From Sinomonas atrocyanea (GTDB lineage: Bacteria; Actinomycetota; Actinomycetes; Actinomycetales; Micrococcaceae), in assembly GCF_030812675.1 (NCBI RefSeq), contig NZ_JAUSTE010000007.1:62001-126000 (forward strand): 64,000 nt of DNA, given 5' to 3'. The notes beneath the pieces are model-generated. The model was not told where the DNA came from. It saw only the letters and a program-made list of their open reading frames with translations, and did no database searches. A program made the translations under genes and the position numbers. This document shows, one piece after another, positions 33,123 through 49,966 of this stretch; position 1 is the first letter of the stretch, and each line of letters starts with the position of its first letter.

Positions 33123-33137
33123 GTCTCAAAGTGAGAC
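33123..33137. promoter_or_regulatory. GTCTCA-N3-TGAGAC palindrome, candidate activator site
   Basis: A perfect 6-3-6 inverted repeat 80 bp upstream of both divergent starts. Fis-type HTH regulators such as AcoR/MimR bind symmetric sites of this kind. The 179-nt region 33042-33220 holds nothing else distinctive. Confidence 0.55.
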
Positions 33138-33220
33138 GCCGTCGCGGGCCCGGCGGCCCGGCGTCGTCCCTACCGTGGTGCTACCGCGACTACGGCAGTC
33201 GCGGAACGAGGAGGCCAGGC

Positions 33221-34291: not shown

Positions 34292-35142
34292 CCGCGGTCG
34301 AGGCCGAGCGCCCCGCCCCCGGCGCCGCTGCCGATCCCCTGGGCGCAGAGCCCCTGCGCGGAGCCGTCCTCGCCGCCCTCGCCACGGTGTTCGACCCCGA
34401 GCTGGACGAGCCGATCACGGACCTCGGGTTCGTCCGCTCGGTCGCGCTCCGGCGGACGGACGACGGCGTGCCGCACCAGGGCGGCCCCGGCGCCGAGGCG
34501 GTGGTGCACCTGCGCCTGCCCACCTCGTTCTGCTCGCCCAACTTCGCCTACCTCATGGCCTCCGACGCGAAGGACGCGGTCACCGCCGTCCCCGGGATCC
34601 GCAGGGTGGTCGTCGAACTCGACGACCACCACGACTCCGAGCTGATCAACGCCGGCCTCGCCGCCGATGCCGGCTACAGGGGCACGTTCAGGCACGAGGC
34701 CGAGCAGGACCTCGAGGAGCTCCGGCTCACCTTCCGCCGGAAGGCGCACACCGCCGCGATGGAGCGCTGCCTCACCGGGCTGCTCCGCGCCGACGCCTCC
34801 CTGCCCGAGGCCGCCGTGGGGGCCGTGACCCTCGCCGACCTGCCCGAGGGCCGGCACAAGGACGCCCTGCTGCGCCGGCGGGAGGCGCTGGGCCTGCCCG
34901 GCCGGCCCGACGCCGTCGTGCTCGTGGACCACAGCGGCCGGGAGTACGCGCCCGAGGAGGTGCCCCTCGCCCTGCGCCGCGCCCGGTCCACGAGGATCTC
35001 GATCGACGGCAACGCCCACTTCTGCCGGGGCCTGCTGCGCACCCGCTACGAGGGCTCCGGGACCGACCAGGCGCCGAGGGCTGACGGCGCCGAGCCGGCG
35101 GACTACCATCATCTACTTCCCATCCACGTCAAGGAGAGCTGA
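34288..35142 (+). CDS. DUF59 (MIP18/SufT-like) Fe-S or metal-cluster assembly protein
   Basis: The protein is 284 aa from a GTG that overlaps the amidohydrolase stop (GTGA). The N-terminal DUF59 domain (about residues 20-115) has FDPELDEPITDLGFVRSV and PTSFCSPNFAYLMASDA with the family Cys. The C-terminal half is less conserved, with HFCRGLLRTRYEG near the end. Such proteins help mature metal centres; in mim/prm clusters they are thought to serve the di-iron monooxygenase. No such enzyme is encoded here. Confidence 0.82.
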   Translation: MTAVEAERPAPGAAADPLGAEPLRGAVLAALATVFDPELDEPITDLGFVRSVALRRTDDGVPHQGGPGAEAVVHLRLPTSFCSPNFAYLMASDAKDAVTAVPGIRRVVVELDDHHDSELINAGLAADAGYRGTFRHEAEQDLEELRLTFRRKAHTAAMERCLTGLLRADASLPEAAVGAVTLADLPEGRHKDALLRRREALGLPGRPDAVVLVDHSGREYAPEEVPLALRRARSTRISIDGNAHFCRGLLRTRYEGSGTDQAPRADGAEPADYHHLLPIHVKES

Positions 35143-35143
35143 C

Positions 35144-36178
35144 ATGAGCACGATGCGCGCTGTGCAGGTCGTGGGGTACCACGACGACCTGAAGATGGCC
35201 GAGGTCCCCAGGCCCGAGGCGGCCGGGCCGTGGGACGTGGTGGTGCGGATCGGCGGGGCCGGGGTGTGCCGCACCGACCTGCACATCCTCGAGGGGCAGT
35301 GGGAGGAGAAGTCCGGGGTGCACCTGCCCTACACGATCGGGCACGAGAACGCGGGCTGGGTCGAGGAGATCGGCAGCGCCGTGAGCAACGTCAAGGTCGG
35401 CGACAAGGTGATCCTGCACCCGCTCATCACGTGCGGGCTGTGCCGGGCGTGCCGCTCCGGCGACGACGTGCACTGCGAGAACAGCAGGTTCCCGGGCATC
35501 GACACCAACGGCGGCTACGCCGAGTACCTGCTCACCTCCGCCCGCTCGGTGGTGAAGATCGACGACGCGCTCGAGCCGGCCGACGTCGCCGCCCTCGCCG
35601 ACGCCGGCCTGACCGCCTACCACGCCGCCGCGAAGGCCGCGAAGCGCCTCACGCCCCGGGACACCTGCGTGGTGATCGGCGCCGGCGGCCTCGGGCACAT
35701 CGGCATCCAAGTCCTCAAGGCGCTCACCCCGGCCCGGATCGTGGTGGTGGACCGCAACCCGGCCGCGCTCGAGCTCGCGAAGTCGATCGGCGCGGACGAG
35801 GGAGTCCTCGCCGACGGCTCCCAGGTGGAGAAGGTGCTCGGGCTCACCGGCGGCAACGGGGCCGAGGCCCTGATCGACTTCGTCGGCGAGGGCGGCGCGA
35901 CCGCCGAGGGCGTGCAGATGCTGCGCCGGGCCGGCGACTACTACGTGGTGGGCTACGGGGAGAACATCGACATCCCCACGATCGACATCATCTCCACCGA
36001 GATCAACATCATCGGCAACCTCGTGGGCTCCTACAACGACCTGCAGGACCTCATGGCCCTCGCCGCCCGCGGCGCCGTCACCCTGCACACCCAGAAGTAC
36101 GCGCTCGCGGACTTCCAGCAGGCCATCTCCGACCTCGACGCCGGCAAGGTCCGCGGCCGCGCCATCCTCGTCCCGTAA
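35144..36178 (+). CDS. NAD-dependent Zn alcohol dehydrogenase
   Basis: This 344-aa MDR-family dehydrogenase has catalytic Zn ligands in GVCRTDLHI and GHENAG, structural Zn Cys in CGLCRACRSGDDVHC and the NAD motif VIGAGGLGHIGIQ. It matches the alcohol dehydrogenase found after the DUF59 gene in propane/acetone monooxygenase clusters, where it oxidises the alcohol product. An AAGGAG ribosome binding site precedes it and the gap to the DUF59 gene is one base. Confidence 0.9.
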   Translation: MSTMRAVQVVGYHDDLKMAEVPRPEAAGPWDVVVRIGGAGVCRTDLHILEGQWEEKSGVHLPYTIGHENAGWVEEIGSAVSNVKVGDKVILHPLITCGLCRACRSGDDVHCENSRFPGIDTNGGYAEYLLTSARSVVKIDDALEPADVAALADAGLTAYHAAAKAAKRLTPRDTCVVIGAGGLGHIGIQVLKALTPARIVVVDRNPAALELAKSIGADEGVLADGSQVEKVLGLTGGNGAEALIDFVGEGGATAEGVQMLRRAGDYYVVGYGENIDIPTIDIISTEINIIGNLVGSYNDLQDLMALAARGAVTLHTQKYALADFQQAISDLDAGKVRGRAILVP

Positions 36179-36200
36179 CCCGATCTCAGGAAGGATCCCC

Positions 36201-36518
36201 GTGATCTACATCAGCGCCAAATTCCCGGTCAAGCCCGAGCACGCCGACGCGTGGCCGGAGATCTCCCGCGAGTTCACCGAGGCCACCAACGCCGAGGACG
36301 GCTGCCTGTTCTTCGAGTGGTCCCGGTCCCTCGCCGACCCCACCACGTACGTGCTCCTCGAGGCGTTCCGCGACGACGAGGCCGGCGGCGAGCACGTGAA
36401 GTCAGCGCACTTCAAGAAGGCCACGGAGGAGCTGCCCGCGTACCTCGCGCGGACACCGGACATCATCAACGTCAAGGTGGACGGCTGGTCCGAGCTGGGC
36501 GAACTCGCCGTCAAGTAG
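36201..36518 (+). CDS. Antibiotic biosynthesis monooxygenase (ABM)-domain protein
   Basis: This 105-aa single-domain protein has the dimeric ferredoxin-like ABM fold, shown by YISAKFPVKPEHADAW, CLFFEWSRSLADPTTYVLLEAFRD and HVKSAHFKKATEEL. Family members are cofactor-free quinol monooxygenases or of unknown role. The GTG start follows AGGAAGG. It is the last gene of the operon; a hairpin terminator follows 17 nt after the stop. Confidence 0.85.
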   Translation: MIYISAKFPVKPEHADAWPEISREFTEATNAEDGCLFFEWSRSLADPTTYVLLEAFRDDEAGGEHVKSAHFKKATEELPAYLARTPDIINVKVDGWSELGELAVK

Positions 36519-36534
36519 GCGCGGAAGGCGGATC

Positions 36535-36579
36535 GGCGGGCGGACGACGGCGGGTGGGGCCCGGCGTCGTCCGCCCGCC
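36535..36579. terminator. Bidirectional hairpin; left copy of a direct repeat
   Basis: A perfect 15-bp stem (GGCGGGCGGACGACG and its complement) around a 15-nt loop sits between the convergent ABM and epimerase genes. About 42 nt of it recurs in the same orientation at 47266-47307, with one G missing from the loop. Besides terminating both genes it marks the left boundary of the catabolic module. Confidence 0.8.
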
Positions 36580-36584
36580 CTCCT

Positions 36585-37478
36585 CTAGCCGGACATCTCC
36601 TCCGAGGCCCCCGCCGCGGCCCAGGCCTCGTCGACAAGCCGCTTTGCGGCGGCCGCGATCGCCATCCCGTCGGCGTAGGGGGAGCGCCAGATGGCGAGCA
36701 TGTCGCCCGCCTCGGGACGGAGCACCGAGCGCGAGAACGCTTCTACGCCGACGCGGCCGCCGTAGCCGTCGCGGAACGCTGAAGCGAGCACGCGTGGCAG
36801 GTCGACGGCGCCCGAGGACACATCGCCTCGGCCCGACTGCCCGACCTCGAGATAGCCGAGCTTGGGCAGGGCGTGCCGGATGGCTCCCTCGAGGTCCTCC
36901 TCCTCAACGGCCATGTGGAAGGTGTCGAGATGGATCTGCAGGTGGTCTGAGCCGCTTGCGGCGACGAACTCGCGGGCCTGCTCGGCGGTGTTCACGACCG
37001 ACGTCTCATACCGGTTGAGCACCTCGAAGGTCATGCGCACGCCGTGCGCGTGGGCATAGTCGGCCACTGCGCCGACCGCCGAGGCCGCGCGCCGGAACGT
37101 CTCCTCGGACGTGCGTCCCCGAGGGTGCCCAAAGAGCCCATACGGCACCCCGTTCATCTGGTCGCCGCCGAGGTCCGCGGTGAACTCGACAAGGCGCTGC
37201 AGGCTCTTGGCCCCCGCCCGGCGGATGTCGGGATCCTCCGAGGAGACGTCGGCGTCCGGTCGCTGTCCCGCGATGGTGACGACGCCGAGCCCCCGATCCG
37301 AGAGCAGGCGGCGCACCTTCCTGGCATCCGTCGCGTGGGGATCGAGCGGCGGCATCACGATCCGTGCGTAGCCGAGCGCTGCGAGCGCGTCGAGCGCGGC
37401 CGGGAGTCCCGGGTCCTCGAGGTCGGGCATGACAACGTTGAGGTGGCATGCGACGTCAGGCGTGGTGGGGTCGGTCAT
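36585..37478 (-). CDS. Sugar epimerase/isomerase of the D-tagatose 3-epimerase/TIM-barrel family
   Basis: This 297-aa cytosolic TIM barrel has metal-site residues in FEVLNRYETS (Glu), IHLDTFHMAVEEED (Asp) and GVEAFSRSVL (Glu). The fourth ligand region reads GYLEVGQSGRGDVSSG, where D-tagatose/psicose epimerases have HxHxGE-type sequence, so Glu may replace the usual His. The probable role is C3 epimerisation or isomerisation of a ketose. It is the last gene of the minus-strand operon, 17 nt after the SDR stop. Confidence 0.8.
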   Translation of the reverse strand: MTDPTTPDVACHLNVVMPDLEDPGLPAALDALAALGYARIVMPPLDPHATDARKVRRLLSDRGLGVVTIAGQRPDADVSSEDPDIRRAGAKSLQRLVEFTADLGGDQMNGVPYGLFGHPRGRTSEETFRRAASAVGAVADYAHAHGVRMTFEVLNRYETSVVNTAEQAREFVAASGSDHLQIHLDTFHMAVEEEDLEGAIRHALPKLGYLEVGQSGRGDVSSGAVDLPRVLASAFRDGYGGRVGVEAFSRSVLRPEAGDMLAIWRSPYADGMAIAAAAKRLVDEAWAAAGASEEMSG

Positions 37479-37495
37479 GCGCTGTGGCCTTTGCT

Positions 37496-38281
37496 CTAGA
37501 AGACGGGCAGTTCGAGGCGCTGCTTGAACACCGAATAGCCGTCGTCGACGTGCACGACGGTCCCATTGATGGCGTTTGCCTCGTCCGAGGCGAGGAAGGC
37601 CACGACATCGGCGATCTCGTCCGGCTCGGTCATCTTGCCGCGCAGCTGCTCGGCCGCGAACGTCGACTTCAGTTCCTCGCTGAATTGGTTGATGATCGGG
37701 GTTCCCACTCGACCGGGGGTGATGGCGACGGCCCGGATACCGTACTCGGCAAGCTCGTAGGCAGCCGACCGGGTGAAGGAGATGACCGCGGCCTTCGCTG
37801 CACTGTAGGTGAAGGAGAGCTCCGCGGCCTGCTCGCCGTAGATCGAAGACGTGCTGATGATGACGCCACCTGTGCCCTGCGCCCTGAACTGGCGGCCGGC
37901 TGCGAGGATGCCATAGTAGACGCCGTTCTGGTCGATGCGGATCATCGGCTCGTAATCGGCCGCGGGGTCGTGCTCCAGCAGCGGCTTGCCTCCGGCAATT
38001 CCCGCGTTGTTGAAGATGACGTCGAGGCGCCCGAAGACCCGCACAGCCTCGGCGACGGCGGCCTCGACCTCCGCGTAGGCGGAGACGTCGACACCGACAG
38101 CCGCAAGCGAGCCGTTGTGGCCCTCTTCGGCGATCTGCCGGGCGGCCTTCTCCGCACCCGCCTTGTCGATATCGGCGATCATGACCTTCGCACCCTCGCG
38201 GACGAACTTCCGCACCGTCGCCAAGCCGATTCCGCTGGCTCCGCCGGTGATGAGCGCTACCTTGCCGTCAAGACGCATCAT
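37496..38281 (-). CDS. Short-chain dehydrogenase/reductase (polyol or sugar dehydrogenase)
   Basis: This 261-aa classical SDR has the NAD motif TGGASGIG, NNAG in the middle and the catalytic Ser...Tyr-x-x-x-Lys (SSIYGEQAAELSFTYSAAK). The ATG at 38281 with AAAGAGGA is chosen; the next codon is also ATG. In this operon it probably oxidises a polyol or sugar to a keto form. It lies 73 nt downstream of the binding protein gene. Confidence 0.88.
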   Translation of the reverse strand: MMRLDGKVALITGGASGIGLATVRKFVREGAKVMIADIDKAGAEKAARQIAEEGHNGSLAAVGVDVSAYAEVEAAVAEAVRVFGRLDVIFNNAGIAGGKPLLEHDPAADYEPMIRIDQNGVYYGILAAGRQFRAQGTGGVIISTSSIYGEQAAELSFTYSAAKAAVISFTRSAAYELAEYGIRAVAITPGRVGTPIINQFSEELKSTFAAEQLRGKMTEPDEIADVVAFLASDEANAINGTVVHVDDGYSVFKQRLELPVF

Positions 38282-38354
38282 GTCCTCTTTCTTCAGCTCA
38301 TGGTGGTGGGGGTGGGGGGCGGCGCGTGCCACCCCCCACGTGGCGTGCAGAGGG

Positions 38355-39335
38355 CTAGCCCAGCTTGTCCGAAGGCGTCACGCTCGCGGCATTGGAGGCG
38401 TCGACGATGGCCGCATCCACCGCCTTGAACCGCTCCTTCGGCAGCGTCTTGTCCTTCTGGTAGGCCGTGACGTCCTTGATGACCTCATCCGTGATGGACG
38501 GCCACGGCTGGTTGATCGTGGCCAGGAAGTTTCCTCCCGACTTGATCTGGGCGAGGGCCTCGCTTGTCGCGTCCACGCCCGTGACCTTCGCACTCGAGCG
38601 GGCCTCGGAGAGTGCCTTGGTTGCGCCGAGAGCGGCGTCGTCCCAGCCGACCCACACGGCGTCGAGCCCGTTCGGGTGAGCGCTCAGGTAGTCGGCGACC
38701 AGGGCGAGGGCTTCGGTGCGCCCGGTCGCCGGCGACTTGACCTTCTGGATGTCTCCGCCCGCGATGTTCGCACCGGCCGCCTTGAGCTCCTTCTCCGCGA
38801 GGCTGGCCCGCATACGGATCCCGGGGTGCGGATCGTGGCCGATCACCATGACGTTCTTGCCCTTGAGGCCACCGAGGGACTTGTCGAGAGCGCCGACCGT
38901 GGTGTCAGCGATCTGCTGCTGGTTGGTGGTGATGTTGACGGCGAATCCGTCGGTGTCCGAGGTCGAGCTGTCGACGGCAAAGATGGGAATGCCGGCGTCC
39001 TTCGCCGCTGAGACGATGGAACCGATCGACGCAATATCGGTGTAGCCGTCCAGAATGGCATCCGCGCCCTGGCCGATGGCGCTTTCAACGGCGGGATTCA
39101 TTTTCTGGAAGTCGAAATCACCCTGGATCATCGTGAGGTTCCACCCCAGCTCTTTGGCCTTGGCTGTCACCGCCTTGACCCACCATGCGCCGATAGGCGT
39201 TTGGTTGCCCGAGGTAAAGGCGATGACCTTGAACGGCTTGCCTGATGAACTTCCTCCTGCGGCGCCTCCGCAGCCTGTCAGGAAGAGAGTCGCCGCGGCG
39301 ATGAGGGCCACGAACATCCCGAATTTTGCACGCAT
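38355..39335 (-). CDS. Ribose-type ABC transporter substrate-binding lipoprotein
   Basis: The protein has 326 aa. The signal peptide ends in the lipobox LTGC (Cys near residue 22), so it is anchored to the membrane outer face. The mature part is a periplasmic-binding-protein type I (RbsB-like) sugar-binding fold with VIAFTSGNQTPIGAWW, DAILDGYTDIASI, AVDSSTSDTDGFA and DAVWVGWDDAALGATKAL. It delivers a sugar or polyol to the adjacent permease. The ligand is unknown. Confidence 0.92.
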   Translation of the reverse strand: MRAKFGMFVALIAAATLFLTGCGGAAGGSSSGKPFKVIAFTSGNQTPIGAWWVKAVTAKAKELGWNLTMIQGDFDFQKMNPAVESAIGQGADAILDGYTDIASIGSIVSAAKDAGIPIFAVDSSTSDTDGFAVNITTNQQQIADTTVGALDKSLGGLKGKNVMVIGHDPHPGIRMRASLAEKELKAAGANIAGGDIQKVKSPATGRTEALALVADYLSAHPNGLDAVWVGWDDAALGATKALSEARSSAKVTGVDATSEALAQIKSGGNFLATINQPWPSITDEVIKDVTAYQKDKTLPKERFKAVDAAIVDASNAASVTPSDKLG

Positions 39336-39419
39336 GTATCTACTCCTTTGTGATGATTGCGTTTCTTTGTCTCGTATTCCGGCGCGTCCTGATGCTGCAG
39401 GCGCCGCCGACGGCGGCCG

Positions 39420-40394
39420 TTACCGGCGGCGCGTCCGAAGGGAGGAGAGCGTCACGGCCGCGATGATGATCGCGCCTGTCACCACCTGTTGGACGTACGA
39501 ATTGACCCCGAGGATGTTCAGTCCGTTGCTCATCACGCCGATGATGGCGACTCCCACCATCGTTCCTCCGAGATTCGCAGCCCCGGATTTGATGACGGTC
39601 ATGCCGAGGAACACCGCCGCGACCGAGAACATCATGTTGTCGCTCCCCTGAACGGCGCTCGCGCTCCCGAGCCTCGCAGCCAGGAGGATGCCGCCGAGGG
39701 CGGAGATCAGGCCTGCGATCGCGAAGGCGAGCATGCGCGCGAACCTGACGTTGACTCCTGAGAGCCGCGACACCTCGACGTTCCCGCCGATTGCGTGCCA
39801 CCGGCGCCCAGTGGTGGTGAACTGCAGTACGGCCCACAGCACGACCGAGATGACGATGGCGATGTACACGGGCAACGGGATGTTGAGCAGTCGTCCCTGA
39901 CCCAGATAGTTGAAGCCGGTCGGGAGATTGAACAGAGTCGTCCCGGCGGTCACGAGGTATGCGAGTCCTACCACCGAGGTCATTGTCGCGAGGGTCGCAA
40001 CAAACGCCGAAAGGTTCACGTAGGCGATGAGGAGCCCGTTGACAAGGCCCACCAGGAGGCCGACTCCCAGCCCTGAGAGGATGGCCATCTCAGTAGGCGT
40101 TCCGTTCAGCATCATGGAGGCGCTCACTGCGCCAGCAAGGCTTGAGGTCGCACCGACGGAGAGGTCGAAGTCGCCGACCACCATGACCACGGTCTGGGCC
40201 CCGGCGATGATCGCGAGGATCGAGATCTGGAACAGGATGTTCTTCACGTTCACGAAGGTGAGGAAGACATCCGGGCGCATCGCGAAGAAGAAGGCGATGA
40301 GGACGATGAGGGCAACCACGGTGCCCCCATGCAGGAGCACACGGCCGGCCGACCGGACCGGGCTGATGGCTGACGTGGTTGTTGTCATGGTCAT
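39420..40394 (-). CDS. Ribose-type ABC transporter permease
   Basis: This 324-aa membrane permease of the RbsC family has eight to ten hydrophobic segments. The conserved VGDFDLSVGATSSLAGAV and GGNVEVSRLSGVNV cytoplasmic-loop motifs are intact. The ATG at 40394 overlaps the ATPase stop by 4 nt. It forms the importer with the ATPase and the binding protein. Confidence 0.93.
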   Translation of the reverse strand: MTMTTTTSAISPVRSAGRVLLHGGTVVALIVLIAFFFAMRPDVFLTFVNVKNILFQISILAIIAGAQTVVMVVGDFDLSVGATSSLAGAVSASMMLNGTPTEMAILSGLGVGLLVGLVNGLLIAYVNLSAFVATLATMTSVVGLAYLVTAGTTLFNLPTGFNYLGQGRLLNIPLPVYIAIVISVVLWAVLQFTTTGRRWHAIGGNVEVSRLSGVNVRFARMLAFAIAGLISALGGILLAARLGSASAVQGSDNMMFSVAAVFLGMTVIKSGAANLGGTMVGVAIIGVMSNGLNILGVNSYVQQVVTGAIIIAAVTLSSLRTRRR

Positions 40395-41947
40395 TCTGAC
40401 TTTCCGTAGCAGTACGAAAGGAGGAGTTCGTCGTCGGCGACCTCGGCGGCAACCTCTCCCGAGATCCCGCCCTCGTGCATGATGAGAATCCGATCGCTCA
40501 TGCCGATCAGCTCGGGGAGTTCGGAGCTGACCGCGATCACCGCAGTGCCCTCGCGGGCCAGGTCGCGGATCAGCCGGTAGATCTCCGCTTTCGTGCCCAC
40601 ATCGATCCCCCGCGTGGGCTCGTCCATGAGGAGGACCTTGGGGCGGCGGGCCAGCATCTTCGCCAGCACCACCTTCTGCTGGTTGCCTCCGGACAGCTCT
40701 CCTACGTGTTGCCGAGGATTCCTCGCCTTGATCTGCAGGTCTCGCATCCCCCGGTTGGCGATGTCGGCGATTCGACCGCCGGAGACGAGTCCCAGACTGC
40801 TCACCGCGGGCATGTTGGCGAGCGCGATGTTGTCCTGGATCGATGCGCCTAGGATGACTCCTTCGCTGCGGCGCTCCTCCGGGACCAGCGCGATCCCTGC
40901 CCTGAGGGCCTTGGCCACGCCGGGCGAGCGGGGGAGCGGGGCGCCGCCGACCGTGACGGTGCCGGACTTGTGCTTCTGCGCTCCCGAGAGGATCCGCAGC
41001 AGTTCGCTTCGACCCGACCCCGCCAGCCCGCCGATTCCCAGAACTTCGCCCGCTCTGACTGTGAAGGAGACGTCCTTCACACGCGAGCCGTGGAGGCCCT
41101 CGACGGACAGCGCTACCGCCGACGTGGCCGTGCCCCTCGGTGGGTAAAGCTGGCCGGCCGAACGGCCCACCATGGCCGAGATGACCTCGTCGATCGTGGA
41201 GTCCGCGACCGTCTTCGTGAGAATCGTCTCGCCGTTGCGCATGATCGTGATCCGGTCACAGAGCTCGAAGACCTCCTCGAGGCGATGAGAGACGTAGACG
41301 ATCGCCACGCCTTGGTCCCGGAGCGAGCGGAGCACGGTGAACAGGTCCTGGATCTCGGAATCGGTGAGCGAGGCGGTCGGCTCGTCGAGGATCAGGACAC
41401 GCGCCTCGGCGGCAAGGGCGCGGGCCACGGCGACCATGGTCTGCTGGACGGGCGAGAGCTCGCCCGCAAGCTGCCCGAGGGGGATCTTCTGGTTGAGGCT
41501 GTCCAGAAGTTCCTGCGCCCTGCGGCGCAGCAGCTTCCACCGGACGAGACCGCCCCTGCTGGGCGTCTGCTCGCCAAGGAGAATGTTCTCCGCGACGCTG
41601 ACTGTCGGGATGGTCGAGAGCTCCTGGTAGAGCGCGACGACGCCGGCGGCCTGCCCCTTCCGGACGCTCGAGAACTCAACGGCCTCGCCGTCGCGCAGGA
41701 TCACACCCGAGTCCGGCGCATAGACGCCGGTGAGGATCTTGATCAGCGTCGACTTGCCTGCGCCGTTCTCGCCGAGCAGTGCGTGGATCTCTCCCGGCTG
41801 CACCGACATCTTCGCTCCGCGGAGCGCGTGCACCCCTTCGAAGCTCTTGACGATCCCACGCGCTTCGAGCGCCGCGCGCGGCTCCTCGACGCCCATCTGC
41901 GCTGCCCCTCGGATCGCGGTAACGAGGGGGCTCTCCTGATCCGTCAT
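40391..41947 (-). CDS. Ribose-type ABC transporter ATPase (two NBDs)
   Basis: This 518-aa cytosolic ATPase carries two nucleotide-binding domains. The N-terminal one has Walker A GENGAGKST, LSPVQQ and Walker B ILDEPTASL. The C-terminal one has a degenerate P-loop (GLAGSGRSELL), LSGGNQQKV and LLMDEPTRGID. This is the RbsA/MglA arrangement. It overlaps the dehydrogenase upstream and the permease downstream by 4 nt each, so all three are translationally coupled. Confidence 0.94.
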   Translation of the reverse strand: MTDQESPLVTAIRGAAQMGVEEPRAALEARGIVKSFEGVHALRGAKMSVQPGEIHALLGENGAGKSTLIKILTGVYAPDSGVILRDGEAVEFSSVRKGQAAGVVALYQELSTIPTVSVAENILLGEQTPSRGGLVRWKLLRRRAQELLDSLNQKIPLGQLAGELSPVQQTMVAVARALAAEARVLILDEPTASLTDSEIQDLFTVLRSLRDQGVAIVYVSHRLEEVFELCDRITIMRNGETILTKTVADSTIDEVISAMVGRSAGQLYPPRGTATSAVALSVEGLHGSRVKDVSFTVRAGEVLGIGGLAGSGRSELLRILSGAQKHKSGTVTVGGAPLPRSPGVAKALRAGIALVPEERRSEGVILGASIQDNIALANMPAVSSLGLVSGGRIADIANRGMRDLQIKARNPRQHVGELSGGNQQKVVLAKMLARRPKVLLMDEPTRGIDVGTKAEIYRLIRDLAREGTAVIAVSSELPELIGMSDRILIMHEGGISGEVAAEVADDELLLSYCYGKSE

Positions 41948-43014
41948 GCCTGCCTCCCGGTGTCCGCGACGTCGTTGCAGCGGATGACCACCTTGGGATG
42001 GACGCCGCTGACGTGGACCCGGAACGCCTCCGCCGCGTCCTCGAGGTCGAAGACGGCCTGGGTCAGCTCTGCCAGCTGAAGGTGCGGGAGGATCTGCAGC
42101 GCGCGGGGGAAGGCATACGGGGAGACGAACACGCCGGTGAGGGTCAGTTCCTTGAGATACAGGTACTCCGAGAGATTCAGCGGCATCTCGAACTCGTGGG
42201 GGTACATGGCCCCGTAGACGACGGTGGCGCCCTTGGCTGCGATGTCCAGCAGACCGCGCACCGCCCGCGGTGACCCGGAGGCGTCGATGACGACGTCGAA
42301 GCCAAGGCCGCCCGTGATCTCCTGAGCGCGGTGCAGCTGGTCCTCCGCGACTGGATCGATCACCACGTCGGCCCCGTGCCGCCTGCCCATTTCCCGGCGC
42401 TCGGCCATCGGCTCGATGAGCGTCAGCGAGGTGGCCCCGTGCATCTTCATGACCTGCAGGACGAGCTGTCCGATCGGCCCCCCGCCGCAGACCGCCACCC
42501 TGTCGCCGACCTTGATGTTGGTCTTGTCAGCGATGCGCACCGCTACCGAGGTGGGCTCGAGGAGGCATCCCTCGAGGAGGGAGACCTCCTCGGGCAGTCG
42601 GTACAGCTGCGATTCGTGCCAGGTCACCGTCTCGGACATGCCTGGCCGGTTGTACTCCTGGATGTACTCGCAGAACTGCTGGCGGCCCGCGCGGCAGGGG
42701 GTGCACGTCCCGCAGAACCGAAGGAAGTTCCCCGCGACCCGGTCGCCAACGCGCAGGCCGGTCCGGTGCGCGCGTTCCCCGAGGGCCTCGACGATCCCGG
42801 ACAGCTCGTGGCCGAGGCCGATCGGCACGTCCTCGCCGAAGAACCCCTCCGCGAGGTGCGGGTCCGAGCCGCAGATCGCCGCGTAGGCGACCCGCACGCG
42901 TACGTCCTCAGGTCCGAGGTGCTGGTCCGGGAAGTCGACGACGCCGATCCGGCCCCGGGTTGCCTCGTCGGGATCGCGAAGGCTGCCGATCTTGGTGACG
43001 GCGACAGTTCTCAT
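41944..43014 (-). CDS. Zn-dependent sugar/polyol dehydrogenase (MDR family)
   Basis: This 356-aa MDR dehydrogenase has catalytic Zn ligands in AICGSDPH and GHELSG. The structural Zn Cys are in CGTCTPCRAGRQQFC, and the NAD motif is CGGGPIGQLVLQ. It resembles sorbitol/threonine-type dehydrogenases. In the module it would oxidise the imported polyol to a ketose. It is followed without a gap by the importer ATPase. Confidence 0.9.
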   Translation of the reverse strand: MRTVAVTKIGSLRDPDEATRGRIGVVDFPDQHLGPEDVRVRVAYAAICGSDPHLAEGFFGEDVPIGLGHELSGIVEALGERAHRTGLRVGDRVAGNFLRFCGTCTPCRAGRQQFCEYIQEYNRPGMSETVTWHESQLYRLPEEVSLLEGCLLEPTSVAVRIADKTNIKVGDRVAVCGGGPIGQLVLQVMKMHGATSLTLIEPMAERREMGRRHGADVVIDPVAEDQLHRAQEITGGLGFDVVIDASGSPRAVRGLLDIAAKGATVVYGAMYPHEFEMPLNLSEYLYLKELTLTGVFVSPYAFPRALQILPHLQLAELTQAVFDLEDAAEAFRVHVSGVHPKVVIRCNDVADTGRQA

Positions 43015-43041
43015 GGTCTCTCCCTTGAGCTCGAGCTGACG

Positions 43042-44007
43042 TCAGGAAGCCGCGCGGACGGCCCGGTGGACGGCGGCGACGGTGGCGGAGAGGCCGTACC
43101 CGTGCTTGTCGCGCAGCTGCTCGTCCTCACCGAAGCCGGCGTACACCTGGGGGATGCCGAGCCGTTCGAAGGCCTGGAGGTGGATGCCGCGGTCTGCGAC
43201 CACGTCGGCAATCCGCGAGGCCAGACCGCCATAGGCGAGGTGGTCCTCGAGAACGACGAACCTGCCGCCGGTCTCCTCGGCGCAGCGGACGACAAGCTCC
43301 TCGTCGATGGGCTTGAGGGTGAACATGTCCACGACGCGCACCGACACCCCGTCCCGGGCGAGGTCCTCGGCAGCCTGGAGGGCCTGCGCAACGACGGTGC
43401 CGTGCGTGAAGATCGTCGCGTCCGTGCCGTCCGCGGCGAGGATGCCCTTGCCGATCGTCACCTCATGCTGGCCGGGCTCGTAGAGCACCTTGTCCTTCTT
43501 GCCGACGGCGAGGCGGATGTAGATCGGGCCCGCCATGGACATGGACTGGCGGATGACCTCGCCCACCATCAGGGGATCCCCGATGGAGGTCACCGTCATG
43601 TTCGTGAGGGCGCACATGAGGGCGAGGTCTTCGACCGCGTAGTGGGTGGAGCCGCCGTTGCCGACCAGTCCGCCGTGGGTGCCGATGATCTTCACCGGCA
43701 GGCTGGGGTAGCAGACGTCGCTGCGCACCTGCTCGAGGGCCCGCATGCTCAGGAATGGCAGCATTCCGGAGACCACCGGGATGTTCCCGTCGTAGGCGAG
43801 GCCGGCGGCGATGCCCACGCAGGCCTGCTCGGCCAGCCCGACGTCGATGAAGCGGTCTGGGTACTTGTCGCGGAACTCGACGAGGGTCGCGCCGATATCC
43901 GGGGTGAGGACCCAGAGGTTGTCATGGGTGTCGCCGAGCTCGGCGAGGGTCGATCCGATGACGGACCGGGCAGAGAGCATCTCTCCGAATGTGAACGTGA
44001 CCGGCAT
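43042..44007 (-). CDS. Transketolase, C-terminal subunit
   Basis: This 321-aa protein contains the pyrimidine-binding and C-terminal domains of transketolase as a separate chain. The catalytic Glu is E60 in DVGLAEQACVG; GTHGGLVGNGGSTHYAVED and the late VVLEDHLAYGGLASRIADV are further family blocks. It forms the thiamine diphosphate site jointly with the N-terminal subunit, whose stop overlaps its ATG by one base. Split transketolases are common in dedicated catabolic clusters. Confidence 0.92.
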   Translation of the reverse strand: MPVTFTFGEMLSARSVIGSTLAELGDTHDNLWVLTPDIGATLVEFRDKYPDRFIDVGLAEQACVGIAAGLAYDGNIPVVSGMLPFLSMRALEQVRSDVCYPSLPVKIIGTHGGLVGNGGSTHYAVEDLALMCALTNMTVTSIGDPLMVGEVIRQSMSMAGPIYIRLAVGKKDKVLYEPGQHEVTIGKGILAADGTDATIFTHGTVVAQALQAAEDLARDGVSVRVVDMFTLKPIDEELVVRCAEETGGRFVVLEDHLAYGGLASRIADVVADRGIHLQAFERLGIPQVYAGFGEDEQLRDKHGYGLSATVAAVHRAVRAAS

Positions 44008-44885
44008 CAGACCGTCTCCTTCTTGCGCGAGGCTTCGAGGGCGGACATGGCCCGCTCCAGATCAGCGGCTCCCAGGGAACCGGCGTGCCAGGCGAGGTTC
44101 CGCTCCATGAAGTCGACCCCCTTGCCCTTGACCGTTTCGCAGATCACGACGGTGGGACGCTTGCTGTCGGTGGCCGGCAGGTGGTCGATCGCGTCCACGA
44201 GCTGCTTCATGTCATGGCCGTCGATCACCACGACGTTCCACCCGAAGGCCGCCCACTTGTCCGGGTAGGGCTCGAACACGACCCTCTCCTCGGCGAAGCT
44301 CGTCATGAGCTGGCGGTTGCGGTCCACAAAGGCCACCAGGTTGCCCAGCTCGTTGCTGCGGGCCGCCTGGGCGGCCTCCCAGACCGAACCCTCTCCGGTC
44401 TCGCCGTCGCCGAGCAGGCAGGCCACCCTGTGGGGCTCGTTGCGTCCGCGCGCGCTGAGGGCCATGCCTACCGCCAGGGGCAGCCCGTGCCCGAGCGAGC
44501 CGGTCGAACATTCGACGCCGGGCAGTTGGACCTTGCAGGGGTGCATCCCGTACGCGCTGTCGAGCTGGCCATACGTGCTGACGATCTCCTCGTAGGGGAA
44601 GAACCCGCGCATCGCCATGGCAATGTACATGCAGACCGCGGCGTGGCCCTTGCTGAGCACGAAGCGGTCCCGGAGCGGATTGGTGATGTCGGTGGGATCG
44701 ACATTCAATCCGTAATGGAAGAGGGCGGTGAAGATATCGGCTGCGGAAAGATCGCCGCCGATATGAACGGCCCCCTCATATGTTCCGCAGAGTTGCAGGA
44801 GCTTTGATCTCAGTTCGAAGGCAAGGTCTTCAAGCTCATCTACGGTGTGCGGATTTCCGCCCGTTGGCAGGCTCATCTGGCCCAT
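44007..44885 (-). CDS. Transketolase, N-terminal (ThDP pyrophosphate-binding) subunit
   Basis: The protein has 292 aa. The thiamine-diphosphate/Mg motif GDGETGEGSVW...DRN is intact (about residues 158-187), and HIGGDLSAADIFTALF and SKGHAAVCMYIAM are typical. The ATG at 44885 with GGAGAGG is preferred over ATG 44900, which has no ribosome binding site. It starts the long minus-strand operon TK-N, TK-C, dehydrogenase, ATPase, permease, binding protein, SDR, epimerase. Transfer of a C2 unit from the ketose to an aldose phosphate would link the sugar to central metabolism. Confidence 0.92.
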   Translation of the reverse strand: MGQMSLPTGGNPHTVDELEDLAFELRSKLLQLCGTYEGAVHIGGDLSAADIFTALFHYGLNVDPTDITNPLRDRFVLSKGHAAVCMYIAMAMRGFFPYEEIVSTYGQLDSAYGMHPCKVQLPGVECSTGSLGHGLPLAVGMALSARGRNEPHRVACLLGDGETGEGSVWEAAQAARSNELGNLVAFVDRNRQLMTSFAEERVVFEPYPDKWAAFGWNVVVIDGHDMKQLVDAIDHLPATDSKRPTVVICETVKGKGVDFMERNLAWHAGSLGAADLERAMSALEASRKKETV

Positions 44886-45009
44886 CACATGCCTCTCCAT
44901 TGAATGACATTGATGTCGGTTGCCGCCCGAGTGTGGCGTCTTCGTCGACTCACATTGATTCCGGATTGGGGGGTGTCTCCAAGCCGGCAGGAACGACGCT
45001 ACACCGGTG

Positions 45010-45040
45010 TTTACATCTAAACAAGATTAGATCTAAACTG
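45010..45040. promoter_or_regulatory. Candidate MarR operator in the divergent control region
   Basis: In the 278-nt gap between the transketolase operon and the aldehyde dehydrogenase, ATCTAAAC occurs twice (45015-45022 and 45031-45038), 16 bp apart. The second copy is part of a perfect palindrome, TTAGATCTAA (45027-45036). The stretch is markedly AT-rich. The MarR-type regulator at 46702-47232 is the likely ligand. Confidence 0.5.
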
Positions 45041-45163
45041 ATTTTCCGGACTCCGTTACCGGTGGTTGCATGCCTGCTCGGCGAGCCCGGACTGCTTCCG
45101 AAGGGGTGCTCGTCGCCACATGGAAGCCTCTTCAGATCTGACACAGAGAGGTGCTTGATCGTC

Positions 45164-46657
45164 ATGAGTGATGGAAGCGTGGACGTCGCCGTGCGCACGG
45201 GACTATTCATCGGGGGCCGCGAGCGGGAGACGGCAGAGGTGCTGCCCGTGCTCGATCCGGCGAAGGCCGGCCGGATTGTGGGAGAGGCGGCGTCAGCATC
45301 GCCGTCGGAGGCCGCCGAGGCGGTGGCCGCCGCCAAGGAGGCATTCCCCGCGTGGGCCGCTCTGCCGGCGACCGAGCGGGCTGCGATGATGGCCACGGCC
45401 ATCCAGGGCATCGCTGAAGCCCGCGACGAGGACGCCGCAATCCTCTCCCAGGAGAACGGCAAGGTGCGGTTCGAGGCTTGGGTGGACTCACTCGTCTTCG
45501 AACTCCGCTGGAACCTCGCGCTTGCGCTCGCCGAAGAGGTGGATCGGCACAAGGTGCTCGAGCCGGCCCCCGGGATTCCCGTGACTACCGAAGTCTCTTA
45601 CCAGCCTCTTGGCGTGGTCACGGTCATCGTCCCGTTCAACTGGCCGATCGCGATTCTCGGGGCCGCGCTGCCCCACGCGCTCCTCGCGGGAAACACCGCG
45701 ATCGTGAAGCCGCCGCCCTCGGCACCGCTGGCTACTGTCAGGGTGGTCCAGCGGATTGCGGAGCAGCTGCCTCCCGGCGTGCTCAACGTCATCACCGGCG
45801 AGGACAAGAACATGACGGCGCTGATCCAGAACACCGATGTAGCCAAGGTCTGCTTCACGGGCAGCGTCAACGGGGGCAGGCGAATCATGGAGATGGCGGC
45901 CAAGTCCCTCACGCGGGTCACCCTCGAACTCGGCGGGAACGACGCAGCGATTCTCCTCGAGGATGCAGTACTCGACGACACGCACCTGGACCGTCTCTAC
46001 GCGGCGATCTATGACACGACCGGGCAGATCTGCATGAATGCCAAGCGCGTCTTCGTGCATCGGTCCCGGATCGACGAGCTCGTGGCGGGCCTGTCGGCGC
46101 GGCTCGAGAAGGTGGTCGTCGGCTACGGCCTCGAGGAGGGCACCACGATGGGCCCCCTGCACTCTCCCGTCCAGAAGACCTTCGTCGATGAGCTCATCCG
46201 GGAGGCCAAGGAGTCGGGAGCCGAGGTGCGCGAATTCGGCAGTCTTCCCGGCGGGGAGCTCGCGGACGGGAATTTCGTGCGCCCGGCGATCGTCATTGAT
46301 CCCCAGCCATCGCTCCGGGTCGTGACAGAGGAGCAGTTCGGTCCCGTCATCCCGGTGATCCCCTTCGACACCGAGGCAGAGGCCGTTGACCTGGCCAACG
46401 GCACGTGGGGAGGCCTCTGTGGGTCTGTCTGGACGTCGTCCCCCGATTCGGCGCGCCGCATCGGTGCGCAGCTGGTCTGCGGCTACGTGTGGGTCAACGA
46501 TCACGGTGCGACACGCCTTGATCTGCGGGCGCCATTCGGCGGCATGAAGCAGTCTGGAATGGGCCGAGAGCAGGGCATTGAAGGTATCAGGGCGTTCCAG
46601 GACACTCGATCCATCGCAACCCTCGACGAAGCCGCCATCGCTTCGGCTTCCCAGTGA
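45164..46657 (+). CDS. NAD(P)-dependent aldehyde dehydrogenase
   Basis: This 497-aa cytosolic enzyme of the aldehyde dehydrogenase superfamily is complete: N159 in PFNWP, E255 in LELGGND, catalytic C290 in TTGQICMN, and FGGMKQSGMGREQG at the end. It oxidises a short aldehyde to the acid; in this module that could be the aldehyde left after transketolase cleavage. The ATG at 45164 is chosen because homology begins there. It is divergent from the transketolase operon and is followed by the MarR gene. Confidence 0.92.
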   Translation: MSDGSVDVAVRTGLFIGGRERETAEVLPVLDPAKAGRIVGEAASASPSEAAEAVAAAKEAFPAWAALPATERAAMMATAIQGIAEARDEDAAILSQENGKVRFEAWVDSLVFELRWNLALALAEEVDRHKVLEPAPGIPVTTEVSYQPLGVVTVIVPFNWPIAILGAALPHALLAGNTAIVKPPPSAPLATVRVVQRIAEQLPPGVLNVITGEDKNMTALIQNTDVAKVCFTGSVNGGRRIMEMAAKSLTRVTLELGGNDAAILLEDAVLDDTHLDRLYAAIYDTTGQICMNAKRVFVHRSRIDELVAGLSARLEKVVVGYGLEEGTTMGPLHSPVQKTFVDELIREAKESGAEVREFGSLPGGELADGNFVRPAIVIDPQPSLRVVTEEQFGPVIPVIPFDTEAEAVDLANGTWGGLCGSVWTSSPDSARRIGAQLVCGYVWVNDHGATRLDLRAPFGGMKQSGMGREQGIEGIRAFQDTRSIATLDEAAIASASQ

Positions 46658-46701
46658 GCCCGGGAAGACCGTTCCCGAGCCGGCGCAACCTTAGGAGCGC
46701 A

Positions 46702-47232
46702 ATGCCTGATCAACGCGACGGGAGTCCCAGCGCCCTTGTCCCAGACGGGGCGGTGGGGGAGCCCCTCGAAGTCAGCGTCGACCCTGAGGAATTCACCCCG
46801 AGGCTCCTTGCGCTGCTGTCGAACGCGCTCGTCTGGCGGGAGTCCCGCGAGCTGCGTCAGCGGTTCTCCCTCGGAACGAACGAGTGGCGGGTTCTGTCCT
46901 CGCTCGCGTCCCGGCCGGGGATGTCTGCGACCGAGGTGAGCGAGTTCCTCGATATGAACAAGGCGGTCGTTTCGAAGAGCGTCAACGTCCTCGTCGAGCG
47001 CGGCCTCGTCGTCCTCTCCGACGGCCCGCGCGGCTCGCGTCCGCTCTATCTGACACAGGCTGGAGCTCGCATGCACGACGGGATGCTGCCGATATCGATG
47101 CGGGGCCAGGAGATCATCCTCGGGCAGCTCTCCGAGCGAGAGTCGAAGCAGTTCAACGCGCTCCTGCGCGGCATGCTGGTTCGGCTGAAAGAGGAAGGCC
47201 TGCGGGACGAGGAGGCCCTGGCCGCCGGGTAG
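46702..47232 (+). CDS. MarR-family regulator of the catabolic module
   Basis: This 176-aa DNA-binding protein has a winged helix at about residues 55-115 (NEWRVLSSLASRPGMSATEVSEFLDMNKAVVSKSVNVLVERGLV, then GPRGSRPLYLT). The ATG at 46702 with AGGAG is preferred over GTG 46654. It lies 44 nt after the aldehyde dehydrogenase stop, so the two are co-transcribed. It probably controls the divergent promoter through the AT-rich site at 45010-45040. Confidence 0.88.
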   Translation: MPDQRDGSPSALVPDGAVGEPLEVSVDPEEFTPRLLALLSNALVWRESRELRQRFSLGTNEWRVLSSLASRPGMSATEVSEFLDMNKAVVSKSVNVLVERGLVVLSDGPRGSRPLYLTQAGARMHDGMLPISMRGQEIILGQLSERESKQFNALLRGMLVRLKEEGLRDEEALAAG

Positions 47233-47265
47233 TCCAAGGGCTGCAGGTTCCGAAGGCATCCTCAA

Positions 47266-47307
47266 GGCGGGCGGACGACGGCGGGTGGGCCCGGCGTCGT
47301 CCGCCCG
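47266..47307. repeat. Right copy of the 42-nt hairpin direct repeat
   Basis: GGCGGGCGGACGACG, a loop, and CGTCGTCCGCCC form a 12-bp stem 33 nt after the MarR stop. The sequence equals 36535-36577 except for one missing G in the loop, in the same orientation. It can terminate the MarR transcript and marks the right boundary of the module. Confidence 0.8.
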
Positions 47308-47343
47308 GGTTTCACTTCGCGGGATAGTTCCATTCCCAGCCGC

Positions 47344-48120
47344 CAGCCTGTCCTGCACCACCAGCCGATCGTCTCCCTCGACGACGGGGCGATGGTCGGG
47401 GTCGAGGCGCTGGTGAGGTGGCGCAGGTCGGAGTCGGAGCTGGTCTACCCGGACCAGTTCATCCCGGTGGCGGAGGAGACCGGCATCATCGTCTTCCTCG
47501 GCCTCTGGGTGCTGCGCGAGGCGTGCCGCACGATGGTCCGCTGGCAGCGGGAGTTCCCCCGCGACCCCTCCCTCACGGTGGCCGTCAACGTCTCCGCCCG
47601 CCAGTTCGCCCAGCACGACTTCGTCGAGCAGGTCAGCCGGGTCCTCGCGGAGACCGGCATTCGCCCCGACACGCTCAAGCTCGAGATCACCGAGAGCGTG
47701 TCGATGATGGACACCGAGTACACGGTCGAGGTCCTCACCCAGCTCCAGCGCCTCGGCGTCTGCGTCAGCATCGACGACTTCGGAACCGGCTACTCCTCAC
47801 TCGCGTACCTGCACAGCTTCCCGATGGACACCCTCAAGATCGACAGGTCCTTCGTCGCCCAGCTCGACCGCGGCGAGCAGGGCCGTCAGATCGTGGGGAC
47901 CATCATGAACCTGGCCCGTGACCTGAAGATCCGGGTCATTGCCGAGGGGGCCGAGACGTCCGAGCATGTCGAGGAGCTGAAGACCCTGGGCTGCGACTTC
48001 GCGCAGGGCTACTACTTCTCCCGGCCCGTCGAGCCGGCCGTCATCTCCGGGCTGCTCGCGGCGGATCCCGAGTTGGCTGGGTCAGCCCGGGGATCCGAGT
48101 GCGACGCGCTGCCCGCCTGA
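47344..48120 (+). pseudogene. 5'-truncated EAL-domain (c-di-GMP phosphodiesterase) gene
   Basis: The EAL homology begins at about 47347 with PVLHHQPIVSLDDG, but no ATG, GTG or TTG exists in frame between the MarR stop (47232) and ATG 47392. A protein made from 47392 would lack the first strand. The rest is intact: VEALVRW (EAL), VNVSARQF, LEITES, DDFGTGYSSL, LKIDRSFV, IAEGAET and FAQGYYFSRP, so all usual metal and catalytic residues remain. No GGDEF or sensor part is present. It looks like the 3' remnant of a larger gene cut at the repeat boundary. Confidence 0.75.
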
Positions 48121-48223
48121 GCGGAACCGCTGGATTGCGAGGCAGCCGCTTGGCAGCATAGGCGTCGAGCCCACGAGCAGGATCCCGTCAGCAACCAAGT
48201 GCGAACGCCGCCAAGGAGAAGCC

Positions 48224-49966
48224 ATGACCGACCCCGGCCCCGCCAGCCCCCACGCCGATCCAGCCGCCGACCCCGAGTGGTTCCGCAGCGCCGTCGTCTA
48301 CCAGATCTACCCGCGCAGCTTCGCGGACTCCGACGGGGACGGGGTGGGAGACCTCCGCGGCATCATCGGCCGGCTGGACTACCTCGAGCGCCTCGGGGTC
48401 GACGTCGTGTGGCTCTCGCCCGTCTACCGCTCCCCGCAGGACGACAACGGCTACGACATCAGCGACTACCGGGACATCGACCCGCTCTTCGGCTCCCTCG
48501 CCGACCTCGATGAGCTGATCGGGGGCCTGCACGCCCGCGGGATGAAGCTCGTCATGGACCTCGTGGTCAACCACACCTCCGACGAGCACCCCTGGTTCGC
48601 CGAGTCCCGCGCCTCGATGGACTCGCCCAAGCGCGACTGGTACTGGTGGCGACCCGCCCGGCCGGGCCCCGAGCCCGGCACCCCGGGCGCCGAGCCGAAC
48701 AACTGGGCCTCCTTCTTCTCCGGCCCCGCCTGGCAGTTCGACGAGGCCACCGGCGAGTACTACCTCCACCTCTTCTCGAAGAAGCAGCCCGACCTGAACT
48801 GGGAGAACCCCGAGGTCCGCGAGGCCGTCTACGCGATGATGAACTGGTGGCTGGACCGCGGCGTGGACGGCTTCCGCATGGACGTCATCAACTTCATCTC
48901 CAAGGATCCCGCGCTCGCGGACAAGCCCCTCGCCGAGGGCGAGCTCTACAGCCACGACCGCAGCGGCTACGTCTGCGGCCCGCGCATCCACGAGTTCCTC
49001 CAGGAGATGCACCGGGAGGTCTTCGCGCACCGGGACGCCGGCCTGCTGACGGTCGGCGAGATGCCCAGCGTCACGGTCGAGGACGCGGTCCTCTTCACCG
49101 ACCCTGCCCGCGCCGAGCTGGACATGGTCTTCCAGTTCGAGCACGTGAACCTGGACCATGGCAACGGCAGCAAGTGGCAGCCGGGCATGCTCCGCCTCAC
49201 CGATCTCAAGACCTCGTTCAACCGGTGGCAGGAGGGCCTGGAGGAGCGGGGCTGGAACAGCCTCTACTGGGGCAACCACGACCAGCCGCGGATTGTCTCC
49301 CGCTTCGGCGACGACGGCGAGTACCGGGACCTCTCGGCGAAGATGCTCGCCGGCGTCCTGCACCTGCACCGCGGCACCCCGTACGTCTACCAGGGCGAGG
49401 AGCTCGGCATGACCAACATGGCCTTCCCCGGGATCGACGCGCACCGGGACATCGAGGTCCTCAACCACTACCGCGAGGCCACCGGCGCGCTCGGCCTCGA
49501 CCCGGTCCAGGTCCTCGAGGCCATCGCCCCGCTCAACCGGGACAACGCCCGCACCCCCGTCCAGTGGGACGCGGGCCCCAACGCAGGCTTCACCACGGGC
49601 ACGCCGTGGATCGCGGTCAACCCGAACGCCGCGGCGATCAACGCCGCCGACCAGGTGGACCGCGACGACTCCGTCTTCGCCTTCTACCGGCAGCTCATCC
49701 GGCTCCGCCACCAGCTGCCGGTCATCGCGGACGGCGACTTCACCATGCTCCTGCCCGACCACGAGGCGGTCTACGCCTTCACCCGCCGCCTCGACGGGAC
49801 CGAGCTGCTCGTCCTCGGCAACTTCTCCGGAGAGCCCCAGCGGGTGGACGTGGGCGACCCGGCCTGGGCCGCTGCCGAGGTGCTGCTCGGCAACTACCCC
49901 GACGTCCCGGGGCTGGACCTGCGCCCGTGGGAGTTCACCTGCCGCCTCCGCACCCACGGCGGTTGA
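48224..49966 (+). CDS. GH13 alpha-glucosidase / oligo-1,6-glucosidase
   Basis: This 580-aa cytosolic glycoside hydrolase has the GH13 regions in order: DLVVNHTSDEHPWF, GFRMDVIN with nucleophile D220, LTVGEMP with acid/base E279 and WGNHDQPR with D353. The start VVYQIYPRSFADSDGDGVGDLRGI is typical of GH13 subfamilies 23/30/31. There is no signal peptide. It would hydrolyse imported malto- or isomalto-oligosaccharides or sucrose-like sugars to glucose. It is monocistronic, with a strong terminator hairpin at 50005-50050. Confidence 0.93.
   Translation: MTDPGPASPHADPAADPEWFRSAVVYQIYPRSFADSDGDGVGDLRGIIGRLDYLERLGVDVVWLSPVYRSPQDDNGYDISDYRDIDPLFGSLADLDELIGGLHARGMKLVMDLVVNHTSDEHPWFAESRASMDSPKRDWYWWRPARPGPEPGTPGAEPNNWASFFSGPAWQFDEATGEYYLHLFSKKQPDLNWENPEVREAVYAMMNWWLDRGVDGFRMDVINFISKDPALADKPLAEGELYSHDRSGYVCGPRIHEFLQEMHREVFAHRDAGLLTVGEMPSVTVEDAVLFTDPARAELDMVFQFEHVNLDHGNGSKWQPGMLRLTDLKTSFNRWQEGLEERGWNSLYWGNHDQPRIVSRFGDDGEYRDLSAKMLAGVLHLHRGTPYVYQGEELGMTNMAFPGIDAHRDIEVLNHYREATGALGLDPVQVLEAIAPLNRDNARTPVQWDAGPNAGFTTGTPWIAVNPNAAAINAADQVDRDDSVFAFYRQLIRLRHQLPVIADGDFTMLLPDHEAVYAFTRRLDGTELLVLGNFSGEPQRVDVGDPAWAAAEVLLGNYPDVPGLDLRPWEFTCRLRTHGG

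Follow-up and report, generated by a model that had tools for sequence, protein, structure and literature searches.

A catabolic gene cluster probably gained by horizontal transfer beside a truncated EAL gene in Sinomonas atrocyanea, between two hairpins of a genus-wide terminator-like family

The horizontal movement of catabolic gene clusters between actinobacteria, without an integrase carried by the clusters themselves, is a known kind of event. An H-NOX protein with its associated GGDEF-EAL enzyme is likewise known to couple the sensing of nitric oxide (NO) to cyclic di-GMP (c-di-GMP). Here we present a locus of Sinomonas atrocyanea at which a cluster resembling the first lies where close relatives carry genes resembling the second. 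The stretch of DNA analysed, called the window below, is 64,000 nucleotides (nt) long (NCBI RefSeq assembly GCF_030812675.1, contig NZ_JAUSTE010000007.1, positions 62,001 to 126,000 of the forward strand; genome G000 in our set), and all positions refer to it. The cluster, at 36585-47232, encodes a predicted sugar importer, enzymes and a regulator, is flanked by two nearly identical hairpins (hp1 and hp2), and is followed by the remnant of a GAF-GGDEF-EAL gene, the EAL stump. We consider it probable that a catabolic cluster was gained here by ordinary horizontal transfer, in a plastic region whose signalling genes eroded from both sides.

With such horizontally moved actinobacterial clusters this one shares a complete set of importer, enzymes and regulator, restriction to one strain, a shifted content of G and C (GC) and a layout conserved in other genera. 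It differs from them in being joined at gene ends beside hairpins of a repeated family, with no tRNA in the window; a Pfam scan of 26 of the 67 called window proteins (three of these 26 had no family at all) gave no domain of an integrase or transposase either. An island linked to an integrase or a tRNA was therefore rejected, and since these scans gave no integrase, transposase or tRNA at an edge, no integrative element is claimed. The arrangement of the H-NOX/GGDEF-EAL systems is found in the relative G008, where an H-NOX gene (HNOB in Pfam) lies directly upstream of the GAF-GGDEF-EAL gene, whereas the window is without H-NOX and GGDEF and keeps the EAL part alone. For the hairpins, the closest described elements are terminators. 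PMC12288462 reports tail-less 'I-shaped' intrinsic terminators from mycobacteria, in which intrinsic terminators are scarce and Rho-dependent termination is dominant, and PMC8355165 states that the poly-A/U pattern is not essential; both papers cite a study titled as requiring the U-tract, so that the sources disagree. The mycobacterial elements of PMC12288462 and the hairpins of this locus are alike in being GC-rich, in having no U run and in standing mostly by stop codons, and they differ in that here the stem sequence is common to many copies and the terminator role is a predicted one.

That the cluster appears foreign and strain-specific is well supported. Beyond the part covering the aldehyde dehydrogenase (ALDH) gene, which has a paralogue, no match was found in any of the 14 other genomes of the genus in a nucleotide-level search (best 20 candidates per genome); the ALDH part alone was matched at 76-77% in seven of the 14 and at a second place in the window's own genome. 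A query of 37496-45100 also found no match in the same 14 genomes (one or two best candidates per genome). The cluster has a GC of 0.663. Its left flank has 0.728, its right flank 0.719 and the upstream operon 0.723, and every 10.6-kb stretch outside the cluster reaches at least 0.716. At third codon positions (GC3) the ten cluster genes range from 0.830 to 0.922, and 48 of the 57 other called genes reach at least 0.94 (manual count). A preliminary description of the window, made from its sequence, had proposed looking for a shift in composition over 36.5-47.3 kb, and the shift is there, with GC falling from about 0.72 and GC3 lower. The cluster is thus deviant in composition and absent at the locus from the close relatives compared (G008, G013 and G012), as expected of an island.

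Similar clusters exist in other genera. A protein scan of named genomes gave 26 cluster loci, 25 of them at 63-85% identity and one distant, at 25%. The core order, from the N- and C-terminal transketolase subunits (TktN-TktC) through ADH, ATPase, permease, substrate-binding protein (SBP) and SDR to TIM, is kept in 19 of the 25, seven of which have an extra SDR and/or SBP gene (manual count); the divergent ALDH-MarR arm is present too in nine of the 25, some of the remaining loci being cut by contig ends. In a tree of three concatenated proteins (transketolase, ADH) the window copy groups with Zafaria, Arthrobacter bambusae and Agreia at a support of 0.998, the inner order of this group being weak (0.483). 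A family sample of 395 genomes, drawn from a larger group and with one or two candidates scored per genome, gave matches in 14, the own genome included, the best of the others being G412 at 77% nt identity over nearly the whole query. An old presence of the cluster in the genus, followed by its loss from each of the 14 relatives, could draw on the commonness of gene loss and on the placement of two of the cluster's closest relatives in the same family, but the lack of a match in 14 of 14 relatives and a composition that is still deviant leave this very improbable.

Eight genes on the minus strand and two on the plus strand (ALDH and MarR) make up the cluster, and their assignments are given in Table 1. 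The complete sugar gene set that the preliminary description had placed between the hairpins is borne out by Pfam and NCBIfam, with importer, enzymes and regulator. All ten proteins fall below the curated NCBIfam cut-offs among the matches listed, and none of the ten matched a kinase family in Pfam or NCBIfam. Truncated genes at the cluster edges were considered and rejected, the TIM-barrel and MarR proteins aligning with most homologues to near their ends. The ALDH paralogue lies in the same genome at G000:C3:195219-196550 (76% nt identity). The gene set suggests a ketose or polyol as the class of substrate, which would be imported, oxidised and epimerised; a two-subunit transketolase would then carry out two-carbon transfer, and ALDH would oxidise the aldehyde product. 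A literature search on split transketolase found no paper.

Table 1. Features of the locus and their positions in the window
Feature	Position	Strand or place	Annotation
Upstream operon unit	31527-36518	activator 31527-33041 (-); other genes 33221-36518 (+)	amidohydrolase, FeS_assembly_P-domain protein, Zn-ADH and ABM protein on the plus strand (Pfam)
Hairpin 1 (hp1)	36535-36579	between convergent ABM and TIM-barrel genes	terminator-like family member
Xylose-isomerase-like TIM barrel	36585-37478	-	PF01261, E 3e-32; nearest solved structures ketose 3-epimerases (PDB 3vyl, 8yeb, 5zfs)
SDR oxidoreductase	37496-38281	-	PF13561
Sugar ABC transporter substrate-binding protein (SBP)	38355-39335	-	PF13407
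Sugar ABC transporter permease, ribose/arabinose type	39420-40394	-	PF02653; NCBIfam NF007067 below cut-off
Sugar ABC transporter ATPase, AraG/RbsA type	40391-41947	-	NCBIfam NF008442 and NF008030, both below cut-off
Zn-dependent polyol-type dehydrogenase (Zn-ADH)	41944-43014	-	PF08240/PF00107; nearest PDB sequence 4oh1, L-iditol 2-dehydrogenase
Split transketolase, C-terminal subunit	43042-44007	-	PF02779/PF02780
Split transketolase, N-terminal subunit	44007-44900	-	top sequence hit in the PDB 6yak, 'N-terminal component of the split chain transketolase'
Aldehyde dehydrogenase (ALDH)	45164-46657	+	PF00171
MarR-type regulator, about full length	46654-47232	+	PF12802; alignments with most homologues reach residue 175-192 (length 192)
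Hairpin 2 (hp2)	47266-47307	33 nt past MarR stop	terminator-like family member
Linker from hp2 to EAL homology	47308-47349		42 nt
EAL stump, remnant of GAF-GGDEF-EAL gene	47350-48120	+	92.4% nt identity with G008, 91.1% with G013
Match to 3' end of G008 ROK regulator gene	48126-48148	-	23 nt, 20/23; weak alone, E 3e-4 in two-sequence comparison
Alpha-amylase family glucosidase-like gene, right anchor	48224-49966	+	PF00128

Over this region the nearest relatives are G008 and G013, at about 87-93% nt identity. The order in G008 is permease, H-NOX, GAF-GGDEF-EAL, ROK, Melibiase_C protein and glucosidase. Homology to it ends near 31447, with a weaker 47-nt piece reaching about 31541, and is picked up again at 47350. 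The 15.8 kb of the window between these points (31.54-47.35 kb) thus takes the place of about 1.84 kb in G008 that holds H-NOX and the GAF-GGDEF part. Against G013 the homology ends at 30045, inside an OsmC-like gene that forms the shared left anchor, and 30.05-47.35 kb replaces about 3.6 kb. To the right, about 3.2 kb with the ROK regulator and the Melibiase_C protein separate EAL and glucosidase in G008, and G013 has about the same length there with open reading frames (ORFs) of like sequence; the window has about 100 nt. The short match to the ROK gene in these 100 nt suggests that the ROK-side genes were deleted in the window's lineage. The 10.7-kb unit of the preliminary description is therefore present between the hairpins and is only part of the change, which against G008 comprises a novel stretch of 15.8 kb and, in addition, the absence of about 3.2 kb to the right of the stump. 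The glucosidase anchor is matched at 81% or more in 10 of the 15 genus genomes, the own one included. An amino-acid permease gene at 30090-31508 is variable: G008 has a match to it, while the stretches fetched from G013 and G012 have none.

The EAL stump is homologous to the intact gene of the relatives from 47350 to about 48088. Its frame (47233-48120) has no internal stop and no ATG, GTG or TTG before 47392, and its Pfam EAL match starts at profile position 12, where that of the intact G008 protein starts at position 3; the first 11 profile positions are missing even when reading from 47308. The loss of the start and first part, already noticed in the preliminary description, is thus real, and the stump is not a complete EAL domain with a start codon. 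The catalytic motifs of such domains (EALVRW, NVS, ITES, DDFGTGYSS, LKID and EGAE) are all present in its translation. The stump lies in the reading frame of MarR, and after MarR's own stop no further stop occurs up to the stump, the frame running through hp2 (46654-48120). For the linker, no match longer than 14 nt was found elsewhere in the fetched loci, among the matches listed.

At the matching place G008 has an open frame of 764 aa and G013 one of 929 aa, and these are the two of the 14 other genus genomes with a match at E <= 1e-60. G013 carries an H-NOX gene at 87% identity and a long ORF that, by eye, is similar to the EAL gene of G008, the genome for which the Pfam assignment was made. 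Of the 15 genus genomes two hold H-NOX, and the window's own is not one of them; the order H-NOX then GAF-GGDEF-EAL is seen at L015:12774-15412 and at G013:C1:1278945-1281463. Going by this arrangement, the two genes in a high-GC actinobacterium are likely an NO-to-c-di-GMP pair. A move of the EAL gene to another place was rejected, since the own genome holds the stump and one further match of only 36% identity (E <= 0.001). The claim that insertion of the module destroyed the gene stands in so far as in G008 and G013 an intact counterpart occupies the locus. The cut may have been made by something other than the cluster, because the unit replaced relative to G008 also includes the upstream operon.

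This operon has the composition of native genes (GC3 0.954-0.991) and an activator of the GAF/AAA-lid/Fis type. In G012 the stretch 31558-36579, hp1 included, is present at 85% identity only 1.2 kb from the same glucosidase anchor; in G003 31564-36180 is matched at 82% and, about 0.6 kb on, so is 36202-36579 with the ABM gene and its hairpin; and in G014 the matches are to parts of the activator and ABM ends. The main part of the operon is found in just two other members of the genus, G012 and G003, and G003 has a second copy of ABM and hairpin elsewhere. A family hairpin, with loop variants, stands 3' of ABM in G012, in G014 and twice in G003, all of them genomes without the cluster, and hp1 is therefore the operon's own older terminator-like element. 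A single replacement of 15.8 kb, in which operon and cluster came together from another member of the genus and cut the EAL gene at once, would fit the extents that are exchanged relative to G008 and G013. We regard it as a tentative and rather unlikely alternative, given that the GC3 of the operon is native while that of the cluster is not and that G012, which lacks the cluster, has the operon close to the glucosidase anchor. For the same two reasons we favour entry of operon and cluster in two probable steps. The preliminary description had also asked for cluster-free relatives with a single hairpin and an intact EAL gene: each was found separately, the single hairpin at the cluster-free locus of G012, which has no EAL match at 1e-60, and the intact EAL gene in G008 and G013, where the family core has no match in the 31 kb fetched from each.

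As first described, a 42-nt hairpin sequence occurs at 36535-36577 and 47266-47307 in the same orientation with a one-base difference, which is a G inserted or deleted in the loop run. Pairing of the arms of hp1 extends to 36579, and the outermost arm bases of hp2 are unpaired. Both fold far better than shuffled sequence on the plus strand (z -6.6 for hp1 and -4.7 for hp2, none of 200 shuffles being as good) and are very stable on both strands. Only 5 nt separate hp1 from the stop codon of the TIM-barrel gene, and 33 nt separate hp2 from that of MarR. Among the best 40 of 359 candidates, hp2 is the closest to hp1 by identity (98% over 42-43 nt, the next copy having 93% over 46) and equals that next copy in bit score (70.7). 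When distinct pairs of sampled copies were scored by alignment, hp1-hp2 reached 40 and tied for 5th to 8th among 561; of the four pairs above it, two join copies from different contigs, and in the other two the members lie within 8 kb of each other on a single contig. For this scoring 44 loci were scanned, nine were dropped since they held no copy with at least three further stem pairs (L116, L119, L121, L124, L125, L127, L130, L151 and L155), and the 35 kept, in which L135 and L136 are one site, gave 34 members, a part of the genome's listed copies. By score, then, hp1 and hp2 are not exceptionally alike among the copies of the family. Each of them is real, but as a pair they are unremarkable for this genome, and they give no strong indication that one insertion event produced both.

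The family core, GGACGACG-loop-CGTCGTCC, occurs at 28 places in this genome. Strict copies number 11-33 per genome in the 15 genomes of the genus, where a reversed-pattern control gave 0-2. Of the 34 sampled copies, a set that includes both flanking hairpins, 27 lie outside called genes, 22 have the 3' end of a called gene within 60 nt (a manual count, made without a randomised control), and eight sit between two convergent gene ends with at most 60 nt on each side. Hairpins just after stop codons are thus found in many places, their stability having been computed for two copies. They are a genus-wide and ordinary terminator-like family, termination itself being a predicted role. The stem, with its core GACGACGGCGGGTG, is shared by these 11-33 copies in each genome; examples lie at L065:3859, 5308, 12244, 15198 and 16819, and five family hairpins stand within 19 kb in G003. 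A stem sequence common to unlinked copies seems to exceed the needs of a plain terminator.

Insertion through repeated terminators, which the preliminary description had proposed, finds no support in these data: the family has many copies, a state of affairs that the description itself had counted against its proposal; a family hairpin follows ABM in relatives lacking the cluster; and the point at which the EAL gene is cut lies 42 nt past hp2. The first two of these points also led us to reject a target-site duplication or an attachment site. Arrival of the hairpins with the donor was rejected as well, one exact pattern being present in none of the 26 cluster-bearing loci and another in none of the four loci L108-L111 (two of these four duplicate the records L070 and L079). 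In a related scheme, circular or linear DNA with the cluster and a family hairpin would have undergone homologous recombination at hp1, after which a hairpin copy would stand on each side of the cluster. The shared orientation, the short distances to the cluster edges, the high identity of hp2 to hp1 and the absence of the exact family pattern from the 26 loci (504 kb), which makes hp2 look native to the recipient genus, would all suit such a capture. We nevertheless judge it distinctly unlikely in view of the four hairpin pairs that score higher and the three that score equally, the hairpin 3' of ABM in cluster-lacking relatives and the 42 nt between hp2 and the EAL homology. To the wider notion that sequence-conserved terminator hairpins are recurrent joining points for integrase-less foreign clusters across the genus, so that imported operons would arrive or end up insulated by terminators on both sides, we give little credence.

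Several observations weigh against the reading we prefer, a horizontal gain in an eroding locus. The GC3 ranges overlap, nine of the 57 other genes lying below 0.94 and the lowest at 0.868, and two cluster genes were part of the training set of the codon-score gene caller behind these values. The cluster also lies 0.5-2.7 points below the GC of its flanks in the 11 loci compared among the 25 that bear it elsewhere, so part of the drop would be intrinsic to the cluster; the EAL stump, too, has a GC of 0.681, though its GC3 is 0.951. No copy in the family sample exceeds 77% nt identity over the whole cluster. The closeness of both edges of the cluster to family hairpins is not accounted for by random insertion. 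The ratio of nonsynonymous to synonymous substitution rates (dN/dS) of the stump (0.112 against G008, 0.145 against G013) is not above that of the intact pair G008-G013 (0.143), with 0.126 and 0.173 for the neighbouring glucosidase; this gives no sign of decay, and either the cut is therefore recent or the stump is still used or under constraint. Finally, the assembly consists of 32 contigs and is not closed.

Under horizontal gain in a plastic locus, we infer the following course of events. A complete uptake-and-breakdown cluster for a carbohydrate or polyol would have been acquired from another, lower-GC actinobacterium, possibly one of the Micrococcaceae, and joined by illegitimate or mixed recombination at gene ends, just before the alpha-glucosidase-like gene, in a locus already turning over genes. 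The signalling genes would have been lost through the same or neighbouring deletions, with H-NOX and the GAF-GGDEF part going on the left, the ROK and alpha-galactosidase-like genes on the right, and the EAL stump remaining. The older hp1, trailing the upstream operon, may now also close the new minus-strand operon, and hp2 may close ALDH-MarR.

The locus is a new instance of an already known kind of event, and a clear case in which the probable NO/c-di-GMP signalling pair of close relatives has been replaced by a putative sugar-catabolic capacity, with a stump remaining. It also calls for caution with hairpin repeats that flank a cluster in a high-GC genome, since these can belong to an ordinary terminator-like family. 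Were such hairpins shown to be preferred joining points, this would help to explain how operons enter genomes without mobility genes.

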